Source: a virus. From it: 28,816 nt of DNA. Below are positions 8,175 to 28,184 of this stretch, piece after piece (positions within the stretch are counted from its first letter, which is position 1; every line of letters begins with the position of its first letter). The DNA is taken from positions 1 to 28,816 of IMG/VR virus record IMGVR_UViG_3300031659_000066. One strand, 5' to 3'. Below the pieces are notes generated by a model, which was not told the origin of the DNA, searched no databases, and saw only the letters and a program-made list of their open reading frames with translations. The translations under genes were made by a program, and so were the position numbers.

Positions 8175-9102
8175 TAAACACTCCCATTATTGATTTAATT
8201 TTAATATCATTTAAATTCAGTATCGCACTTAGGTACTCTACTAGTTCTTCTTCCATTGACATATCTTTTAAATTAAGTGTAGCTTCACTACTTCGTTTTA
8301 CTACTTTCTTATCCAGCAATTCGGAGTTCTTGATGTTTGCTAAGTCAGCTACGTCACCTTCTATCTCGTAGATAGTATGGTGAAAATCTGTTGCAATCAT
8401 TTCATTCTCACTTCCCACAGTCTTTCTTATTAGCTGTGGTAGGTTAAATTCATGCCATGTCCAAACTTCTGAGAAGCTAGGATCAATTAAAAGATAGCCC
8501 GTCTTGACTACTTCTCGATGAAAAGAAGTAGTCATGGGACTGCCTGGATAGATAATGTTTCTCTGCGTATTGGAGTGACTGTGTAGGTCTCCCGCGTATA
8601 CTACAGGAAAGTCATTAAACCTTTCCAAGTCTACCTCTGGCGTTACATGAGGTGGGATTTCTCCCCTTACATGTGTAAACAAAGGTTTGTTGGTATCGCA
8701 TTTTTCTATCATACCTTTTCTATGCAAGTCTGCATAAGGTAATATAGTACCCCATGGATACTCTGTCCATGTGTCTACGATCTCAACTAAAGGATTTACA
8801 TCAGTTGTAGCTCTCTTTAGATTGCTAAAGAATGTTGTATTCTTTTTAGTAGCTTCGTGATTACCATCATAAATGATAGTAGGAATAGTTACTTCTCTGA
8901 CAAAGTCAAAGTATAGTGTAAGCTCATCCATTGAAGGTACTCGGTCAAATAAATCACCACCTATAATGTGCATAGTAATATCTTTGTTATCTTCTAGCTT
9001 ATGAATAGCTTCAAAAAATAACTTATATCTACTACATGCCCATGCCATAGGTACGTTCTTCTGACCTAGCTTTAAGTGCCAGTCTGCTGTAAATAATATC
9101 AT
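8143..9102 (-). CDS. sbcD: SbcD/Mre11-type nuclease (T4 gp47-like)
   Basis: A 319-aa calcineurin-type phosphoesterase, the nuclease half of the SbcCD (gp46/47) complex. Metal ligands in the usual order: D7/H9 (ADWH), D50 (GGDLFD), N81-H82 (DGNHE), H144, and H174/H176 (GDLHSH). I start it at ATG 9102, not at the longer frame's 9135: this start puts ADWH at the very N-terminus and makes a 4-base ATGA junction with the peroxiredoxin stop. Translation is probably coupled to that gene. Confidence 0.94.
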   Translation of the reverse strand: MILFTADWHLKLGQKNVPMAWACSRYKLFFEAIHKLEDNKDITMHIIGGDLFDRVPSMDELTLYFDFVREVTIPTIIYDGNHEATKKNTTFFSNLKRATTDVNPLVEIVDTWTEYPWGTILPYADLHRKGMIEKCDTNKPLFTHVRGEIPPHVTPEVDLERFNDFPVVYAGDLHSHSNTQRNIIYPGSPMTTSFHREVVKTGYLLIDPSFSEVWTWHEFNLPQLIRKTVGSENEMIATDFHHTIYEIEGDVADLANIKNSELLDKKVVKRSSEATLNLKDMSMEEELVEYLSAILNLNDIKIKSIMGVFNDYSKNATLG

Positions 9103-9608
9103 GCTACGAAATCTTCTCCTGGCTGCCATGCGCAACCAGTAAGTCCACCAGCTTTTAAAGCCTGTAGTGTTCTTAGTATTTCGTCTGCGTTTCTACCCGT
9201 GTCAAGAGCGTTGACTGAGTAGTGTTGAATTACGTGGTCTTCATCAAGAATAAAAGTAGCTCTGTAAGGAACTCCTTCACTATGATTATATACACCTAAT
9301 TCTTGAGCAAGTCTACTACCTGCATCGCAACACAAAGGGTGTTGGATGTTTCTGATAATATCATTGCTTTCTTTCCAAGCTTGTTTACAAAATTCATTGT
9401 CAGGGCTAAAGCCTAACACATCAGCTTCGCCCAACAGTTTATCCATATCGGATATTTCTGTTGGACAAATGAATGTAAAGTCTTTTGGATAAAAATAAAC
9501 AACTGACCACATATTTTCTGCAAGTACTTCGACATCGATAAGTATGTTATCAATGTCACATGCTACTGCTGAAAAGTCTGGGAATACGTCTCCTATTGAA
9601 TAATCCAT
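9099..9608 (-). CDS. Typical 2-Cys peroxiredoxin (AhpC/TSA family)
   Basis: A 169-aa thiol peroxidase that reduces hydrogen peroxide and organic peroxides. It has the full active site: P41, T45 and peroxidatic C48 in FYPKDFTFICPTE, R116 in YRATFILD, and a resolving cysteine C159 in GCAWQPGE near the C-terminus. This matches the typical 2-Cys subgroup; the usual VCPANW context of the resolving cysteine is changed to GCAW. Extra cysteines lie at 17, 74, 93 and 94. The gene has a strong AAGGAG site and sits between ssb and sbcD with ATGA coupling to sbcD, so it is a settled member of the replication unit and not a loose insertion. It needs an external reductant; none is encoded here. Confidence 0.95.
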   Translation of the reverse strand: MDYSIGDVFPDFSAVACDIDNILIDVEVLAENMWSVVYFYPKDFTFICPTEISDMDKLLGEADVLGFSPDNEFCKQAWKESNDIIRNIQHPLCCDAGSRLAQELGVYNHSEGVPYRATFILDEDHVIQHYSVNALDTGRNADEILRTLQALKAGGLTGCAWQPGEDFVA

Positions 9609-25014: not shown

Positions 25015-25043
25015 ATTATACATAATTTTAGACACCTTGTCAA
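25015..25043 (-). promoter_or_regulatory. Sigma70-type promoter P6
   Basis: TTGACA (25043-25038), 17 bp, TATAAT (25020-25015) on the minus strand, five bases before the ATG at 25009. It drives the 200-aa gene, mazG, DUF3310, the HTH gene and the membrane protein. Confidence 0.9.
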
Positions 25044-25046
25044 GTA

Positions 25047-25424
25047 TTATTTTGAGTTAATCTTATCTTTTGCTGTTCCTGCGTATAGTCCAAACCAGGC
25101 TGCACCTGCTCCAACTACTACTGATATTAATCCTGACTGCTCCATTGATGGGTCAGGTAATTCCATGAACCACATTGTGCAGTAGTACAATAAAAAGATG
25201 TACACAGATAAAAATGCTCTTGGGAATATTCTCCACGCATCTATCATGTTTGACATCCATATGTACTTCTGGTAGGGATTGTCTGGCTCTTTATCGTTTT
25301 CTAAGTCCATTATTTTGGCTTTTAGTTCACCGATTTCTGAAACCATTGCCATGAATTTATTGAGGTCAATTTCTACCTCGTTGCGGCTCATGTCTCCGCT
25401 GAATTGTTCTTGGTTATTTGACAT
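25047..25424 (-). CDS. Holin-like membrane protein
   Basis: A 125-aa protein. An N-terminal coiled-coil-like region (about 16-45) is followed by a segment MIDAWRIFPRAF, a membrane helix at about 69-90 (FLSVYIFLLYYCTMWFMEL) and a second one at about 97-116 (SGLISVVVGAGAAWFGLYAG). The end resembles holin-type proteins of marine phages ('GAGAAWFGLY'), and a lysozyme gene lies in the same unit, so a holin role is likely but inferred. Start 25424 has AAAGGACATAGA; the alternative ATG at 25391 makes an ATGA overlap with the preceding small gene. Confidence 0.6.
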   Translation of the reverse strand: MSNNQEQFSGDMSRNEVEIDLNKFMAMVSEIGELKAKIMDLENDKEPDNPYQKYIWMSNMIDAWRIFPRAFLSVYIFLLYYCTMWFMELPDPSMEQSGLISVVVGAGAAWFGLYAGTAKDKINSK

Positions 25425-27494: not shown

Positions 27495-27926
27495 CTAGCC
27501 TATTGTTATCGTCTTAGGCTTCTCTTCGTCAGGTGTATTTACCTGAAGGTTAATAACTAACATACCATGTGTGAATTCGGCATTAGATATTTCTACCCAA
27601 TCCCCAAGAGTAAAAATTCGGCTAAAGGTTTTACCGCTGAGTCCTTTATGGACATAACGTTCCTCGCCAGAACTTAGTTCTTGCTTTTCTGTTCCTTCTA
27701 TAGTAAGTTTATTTTTGTGTTGCTTGATATCGATGTCATCTTTTGACCAGCCAGGCAGCGCGATTTCGATGCGGTAACCCGTATCTCCAACTGCTACTAA
27801 GTTGTATCTTGGATAGTTAGTAAGAGGTGAACTCTCGTTCCTTCTAGTAAGTTCCTTATTCAAGCGGTCGAATCCAACAAATAATTTGTCGAAGTCGTTA
27901 AAGTTTAATGCTGTTAATCCAGTCAT
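27495..27926 (-). CDS. Small heat shock protein (Hsp20)
   Basis: A 143-aa chaperone of the alpha-crystallin type that holds unfolding proteins. The alpha-crystallin domain spans about 43-130: YNLVAVGDTGYRIEIALPG, DDIDIKQHKNKLTIEG, YVHKGLSGKTFSRIFTL and GMLVINL (the G-x-L motif), with a C-terminal I-x-I (KTITIG). I start at ATG 27926 with CAGGAGAAAAAC upstream. Longer in-frame sequence upstream (to 28088) is G+C-rich, lysine/arginine-rich, without a ribosome binding site, and more likely structured leader. Hsp20 genes are common in T4-like cyanophages. Confidence 0.92.
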   Translation of the reverse strand: MTGLTALNFNDFDKLFVGFDRLNKELTRRNESSPLTNYPRYNLVAVGDTGYRIEIALPGWSKDDIDIKQHKNKLTIEGTEKQELSSGEERYVHKGLSGKTFSRIFTLGDWVEISNAEFTHGMLVINLQVNTPDEEKPKTITIG

Positions 27927-27933
27927 TGTTTTT

Positions 27934-28148
27934 CTCCTGTTTGCGTCCTTTCGGTCCGCGCTTTGAGACCCTTGCGGCGTCTCGGTTAATGTTGTATGTC
28001 TAACAAAACCCGTCCGCTGGTGGAAAGCGGAGCTCCTACCACAACCCTCAGAAACTTGGCGTTTCTTACTCGTGCCAGACATATGCAAGGTTTTGTTGTG
28101 GGAGTCCCTGCAACTCCGCTGAAAATCACATAAATTATTTAAAATTTA
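27934..28148 (-). ncRNA. Structured G+C-rich leader of hsp20, candidate regulatory RNA
   Basis: The predicted transcript from P7 has about 220 bases before hsp20. On the minus strand it contains AGCGGAG (28120-28114) pairing with CTCCGCT (28032-28026), CCACAAC (28101-28095) with GTTGTGG (28045-28039) nested inside, and AACAAAACC (28097-28089) complementary to GGTTTTGTT (28010-28002), which lies outside the first helix and would form a pseudoknot. Local hairpins are AGAAAC/GTTTCT (28066-28050), GAGAC/GTCTC (27983-27965) and a GAAA-loop stem (27959-27943). The G+C content looks higher than around it. No riboswitch class recognised; candidates are an RNA thermometer, a riboswitch or a processed RNA. 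Confidence 0.6.
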
Positions 28149-28155
28149 TACTACT

Positions 28156-28184
28156 ATTATAACAAAAATTACCACCCTTGTCAA
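28156..28184 (-). promoter_or_regulatory. Sigma70-type promoter P7 for hsp20-lysis unit
   Basis: TTGACA (28184-28179), 17 bp, TATAAT (28161-28156) on the minus strand. It drives the structured leader, hsp20, the 52-aa gene, iscA, lysozyme and the small genes to the holin-like gene. Confidence 0.9.

Follow-up and report, generated by a model that had tools for sequence, protein, structure and literature searches.

The leader of the phage hsp20 gene is a real, strongly conserved structured RNA, which is supported by covariation and absent from Rfam. In the window, as we call the whole stretch of 28,816 nucleotides that was analysed (IMG/VR record IMGVR_UViG_3300031659_000066), it spans some 220 non-coding bases of the minus strand (27927-28150), between a promoter and the hsp20 start at 27926. 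Read from its 5′ end, the conserved fold comprises a hairpin, an H-type pseudoknot, a three-way junction, and two tandem hairpins just before the ribosome site. Our preferred reading, to which we give a probability of roughly 0.6, is that of a cis-acting regulatory RNA of the hsp20 operon composed of two separable modules, a sensor-like, exchangeable core and an hsp20-specific operator.

The hsp20 locus and its relatives

All features of the window given here with coordinates lie on the minus strand. A sigma70-type promoter, TTGACA-17-TATAAT, stands ahead of the leader at 28156..28184 (12/12 matches), and a similar promoter is found ahead of the leaders of the relatives too. Seven perfect TTGACA-N17-TATAAT promoters are present in the window (10657, 14923, 19679, 22446, 25015, 28156 and 28643), all on the minus strand, when 0.07 would be expected. 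Unlike the hsp20 promoter, at least those at 25015 and 28643 have short leaders. Promoter and leader are followed by hsp20, which encodes a small heat-shock protein of 143 aa (27495..27926; PF00011, E 2.6e-14; phrog_432, E 3e-37), then by the gene of an A-type Fe-S protein and by an endolysin gene. The iron-sulphur carrier (HesB/IscA-like, PF01521, 27021-27413) comes directly behind hsp20 in many relatives and is absent from others. Nearly all relatives also encode, downstream of the endolysin gene, a conserved protein of 125 aa with a GAGAAWFGLYAGT tail (25047-25424 in the window), without Pfam match, which is possibly a holin. A phage protein that looks like a peroxiredoxin (AhpC-like, 9099-9608) matches weakly a PHROG of unknown function. 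The window is part of a T5-like phage: its DNA polymerase shares 42-46% identity with the enzymes of T5-like phages, and SbcC/SbcD, a D5-like regulator, an NAD-dependent DNA ligase and a ribonucleotide reductase are present.

A search with the Hsp20 protein produced 72 loci from IMG/VR, and the RNA core was present directly before hsp20 in every one of them that had enough upstream sequence. Further loci, with Hsp20 identity down to about 45-56%, were recovered with DNA patterns; invariance of the search motif is partly built in for loci found in this way, and most loci came via the protein. Altogether, 57 distinct hsp20 leaders carry the core (55 full leaders forming the main set, plus L181 and L193). 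A single core without hsp20 was found, in L098, so that hsp20 comes directly after the core in 57 of 58 cases. Real copies of the core amount to one per record in the 8 longer phage records that were searched; a downstream match of 16-20 bits, which falls within the L222 endolysin gene, is due to chance, and five extra pattern matches (L182-L186) turned out to be unrelated G+C-rich DNA. The isolated phages and plasmids of the collection contain no relative of the RNA. Among cellular organisms, a pattern scan of the genomes of 84,980 species gave 4 matches, the best with 12.1 bits in the model, none of them meaningful. Carriers of the RNA are uncultivated T5-like phages, known here only from metagenomes. 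The leader might have been taken for that of a lysis operon, endolysin being downstream in many relatives; as it does not follow in all of them, hsp20 is the better-linked gene, and this reading was rejected.

Evidence for selection and the conserved fold

A first-pass annotation of this DNA had described a leader richer in G+C than its surroundings and structured beyond chance. Both observations hold: G+C is 0.50-0.56 in 100-base windows over the core, compared to 0.30-0.38 on the flanks, and the leader of the window folds at -62.9 kcal/mol, against -52.9 for shuffled sequences (z -2.4, 2 of 200 shuffles being as good). Fifty leaders were aligned by sequence only (A1), without fitting to any structure, and covariation was scored over all column pairs with a G statistic and average-product correction. 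For the null, the substitutions of each column were scattered randomly over the tree, giving 60 alignments; as this is a home-made simplification of published nulls, E-values are approximate. Of 25,200 column pairs, the nine that scored highest were all base pairs, each paired in 86-100% of cases: four in P4 (E 0, 0, 0 and 0.07), two in HP-B (0 and 0.07), two in HP-A (0 and 0.35) and one in P1 (0.07). An alignment-free test, in which the strands of a helix were recombined between phages (2000 permutations), gave for P0, P3 and P4 no permutation as good as the observed pairing (0/2000 each). For P1 and the pseudoknot PK1, scored jointly, none of 2000 linker permutations equalled the observed score. 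This test locates the hairpin first and is the proper one; with a cruder cut of segments, neither P1 nor PK1 was separated from the permutations. A pair counter found 85% of cells paired, versus 28-45% when the strands were slid. The RNA is also held more tightly than the Hsp20 protein: in pairs of phages with Hsp20 45-55% identical (51% given), the P2-P4 block is 82% identical, and fourfold codon sites 38%. Some 38 columns are invariant, many of them unpaired.

These helices are not those initially proposed. The two nested helices named by the first-pass annotation (AGCGGAG/CTCCGCT, 28114-28120/28026-28032, and CCACAAC/GTTGTGG, 28095-28101/28039-28045) and the 9-bp complementarity crossing them (AACAAAACC/GGTTTTGTT, 28089-28097/28002-28010) are present in the window letter for letter, but are not conserved in relatives: with strands recombined from different phages, permutations were as good in 166, 197 and 1076 of 2000 cases. 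The covariation that it had called for does exist, in other helices, and its idea of a pseudoknot was right, PK1 being conserved, with a different pairing from the one it gave.

At the 5′ end of the transcript, P0 (28130..28149) is an A+U-rich hairpin whose strands match within a phage and not between phages. It is followed by the P1 hairpin, GGAGT-TGCAGGG-ACTCC (28101..28117, 89% of cells paired), whose loop (28106-28112) reaches over an A-rich linker (28091-28100) to pair with 28084-28090, forming the H-type pseudoknot PK1 (28084..28112). Loop and partner change together, as GTAGG/CCTAC, GATGG/CCATC, GTCGG/CCGAC, and GGGG/CCCC in L181. An alternative pairing of the 3′ arm of P1 with the junction GGUAG scored below the shuffled mean and was discarded. 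P2 (27995..28083), a probable rather than proven helix, would close the three-way junction by pairing 28074-28083 with 27995-28004 (88.8% of cells paired). In 6 of the 10 pairs a single side varies, G-U mostly replacing G-C, and in none do both sides vary; covariation cannot be assessed because the strands are nearly invariant. Inside the junction, the P3 hairpin (28050-28066) stands on an invariant GAGTA/GAG internal loop (whole element 28045..28071), which may resemble a G-bulged motif of the sarcin-ricin type; 4 of 6 pairs change on both sides, and L181 has GGAGC-UUCG-GUUCC at this place. The P4 hairpin, TCCGCT-TTCCACC-AGCGGA (28013..28031), shows the strongest covariation: four of its pairs are in the top 8 of the 25,200, all 6 change on both sides, and pairing reaches 99.6%. 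The junction GGAG (28033-28036) could pair with TTCC of the P4 loop (28022-28025), and we propose, from invariance and geometry, a second compact H-type pseudoknot, PK2 (28019..28036). Its covariation is impossible because the strands hardly vary, GGAG being invariant and TTCCACC found in 53 of 55 leaders.

The core is linked to the twin hairpins by 11 bases (27984..27994) that are A+U-rich and unstructured in relatives as well, and that might be a processing site. HP-A (27965..27983, covarying pair 27980-27968) and HP-B (27943..27961, covarying pairs 27958-27944 and 27957-27945) were found in all 55 leaders and follow the same design: a variable stem that covaries, in most cases a single bulged base 2 bp below the loop, CC:GG or UC:GA, and a loop that is GNRA or, in both hairpins of ten divergent phages, GAUAA. 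The bulged base is always a purine in HP-A and mostly so in HP-B. This design does not occur elsewhere in the window or in a 91-kb relative. HP-B ends a few bases before the ribosome-binding site AGGAG (27934..27938), itself 8 to 12 bases before the start codon and unpaired in the predicted fold. The pair of hairpins looks like an operator for an RNA-binding protein, and is a candidate for this role.

Natural loss and exchange of the parts

Two natural rearrangements separate the core from the rest of the leader. In L098, promoter and core are intact (116.6 bits), and HP-A, HP-B and hsp20 are missing. What follows the core matches the L076 sequence immediately downstream of hsp20, which is what would be left if the hairpins had been deleted together with hsp20; this could be a recent event, and is a single case. 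A hairpin-forming element (GGAGTGGCA...TGCCACTCC) is located just after hsp20 in L076 (2041-2080) and relatives, and directly after the core in L098 (955-1035). Conversely, L275 (the same phage as L268), L276 and L277 have kept promoter, hsp20 and both hairpins, but their core is unrelated, and structured too. This type 2 core (L275:2276-2425, L276 and L277) has a fold z of -3.1 and shows compensatory changes, for instance GCCUAC/GUAGGC to GCCUAU/AUAGGC; it matches neither model R1, nor Rfam, nor isolated phages. We conclude from the loss in L098 and the swap in L275-L277 that the hairpins go with hsp20, and that the core is a separate, exchangeable unit.

Such natural events indicate which of the parts accompanies the chaperone gene and which is independent of it, and make function directly testable with reporters.

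Proposed regulatory model and known systems

The data show an RNA under selection, with its fold, its modularity and its linkage to hsp20; cis regulation, the partner bound by each module and the direction of control are inferred. The host sigma70 polymerase would transcribe leader and hsp20 together. The first module (28149-27995), with its compact fold and many invariant unpaired bases, would most likely decide what becomes of the transcript, acting as a sensor or aptamer or else as a docking domain for a protein. The second (27983-27943), beside the ribosome site, would most likely be a translational operator bound by a protein. Hsp20 itself may be the first candidate binder: since the hairpins accompany no gene but hsp20, autogenous control is the simplest proposal for the operator. 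A cis leader combining a sensor or docking core with a protein operator would explain position, linkage and modularity. Some points count against it. The core is a conserved, folded, aptamer-like domain with invariant unpaired bases, but no conserved U run acting as terminator follows P4 and no conserved sequestration of the ribosome site is seen, so that the usual expression platforms of riboswitches are not visible; and a core without hsp20 is seen in one phage only, L098, where the deletion could be recent.

Survival of the core in this phage speaks for a rival reading in which the core is a trans-acting sRNA, the transcript being cut in the unpaired A+U-rich linker that parts core from hairpins, the core acting on other RNAs or proteins, and the rest encoding hsp20. 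The invariant pyrimidine loop UUCCACC would suit such a role. Nevertheless, we consider this unlikely, though worth keeping in mind: all cores but that of L098 are immediately upstream of hsp20, the core is not followed by a terminator, and an exchangeable core occupying one slot, as in L275-L277, suits a leader at least as well. The same unrelated core would agree with the leader being mainly a stabiliser, its 5′ hairpin, pseudoknot and junction shielding the operon mRNA from RNases without any sensing, and a hairpin lies indeed right at the predicted 5′ end. This seems rather improbable, since the invariant columns, many of them unpaired, exceed the needs of shape alone. A self-cleaving ribozyme of an undescribed class would also have a compact pseudoknotted fold and an invariant core; none of the ribozyme models of Rfam gave a match at E≤5, no cleavage-site pattern was seen, and we give this very little credit.

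Placement before a heat-shock gene had led the first-pass annotation to suggest a thermosensor, and thermometers are reported to control IbpA in Pseudomonas (PMC3669281). A ROSE or fourU element, likewise located in the 5′ leader of a small heat-shock gene, would need a conserved weak helix over the ribosome site that opens upon heating. Here, no conserved helix covers AGGAG, its predicted openness hardly moves (0.51 at 10 C, 0.60 at 45 C), the ribosome site is not sequestered and the conserved helices are all upstream of it; a thermometer controlling hsp20 is therefore very improbable. An N-terminal extension of Hsp20 or a leader peptide in place of an RNA element can be rejected. In the window the frame runs open from 28088 (28088-27927), and conservation of its amino acids had been named as what could overturn the RNA interpretation, but it fails in homologues: a median of 15 open codons precedes hsp20 in 55 of them, frame-breaking indels and stops are present, and the frame is closed in most. 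Products of the ATGTCTGG frame range from 7 to 52 codons and share no common C-terminal part.

Returning to the cis-regulatory reading, its strongest form would be that of a regulatory phage RNA of a new class: an exchangeable pseudoknotted sensor-like domain and a twin-hairpin operator, bound by the phage chaperone or another protein, would couple a signal and protein-folding stress to expression of the chaperone operon. We put this forward as a tentative possibility. Ligand binding by the core would make it a new class of riboswitch, and binding of Hsp20 to the hairpins would provide a viral example of a chaperone that controls its own mRNA.

The earlier impression that the leader belongs to no known RNA class was confirmed with Rfam 15: at gathering score the leader has no match, only tRNAs being found elsewhere in three loci, and nothing credible appeared at E≤5 on three members. 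No description of this RNA was found in an open-access library; one elsewhere is possible. The manA RNA (RF01745) is similar as a phage-borne structured 5′ leader of comparable length (192 model positions), and is also found before ibpA-type chaperone genes (PMC2864571). Its model, which scores 141.7 bits on P-TIM40, gives no match at E≤10 in the record of the window and four relatives, and the true manA leader of P-TIM40 has no recognisable motif in common with ours. The wcaG RNA (RF01761), a marine phage 5′ leader and candidate riboswitch, has no match in the window and a chance-level one elsewhere in the 91-kb relative, compared to 78.6 bits for syn9. The preQ1 and SAM-II riboswitches are H-type pseudoknots with an A-rich third loop and many invariant unpaired bases. 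The pseudoknot type is the same here; the leader differs by the lack of an Rfam match, an extra three-way junction and no platform over the ribosome site.

Among protein-bound leaders, R93 of E. coli IbpA presumably corresponds, by alignment of GIAERNF of the E. coli protein with GLSGKTF, to a Lys (SGK) in all aligned phage Hsp20 proteins, and not to an Arg. In E. coli this residue is needed for IbpA to bind its own mRNA (PMC10474464). Because the phage proteins have Lys at this position, autogenous control of the IbpA kind is not supported; binding of a small heat-shock protein to its own leader would be the point in common with IbpA self-repression, the leader itself being unrelated. Coat-protein operators of the MS2 type are short hairpins, with a small loop and a base bulging out two pairs beneath it, placed beside the ribosome site. 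HP-A and HP-B share with them both the bulge design and the position, and differ in being tandem, in having GNRA-type loops, and in belonging to a DNA phage.
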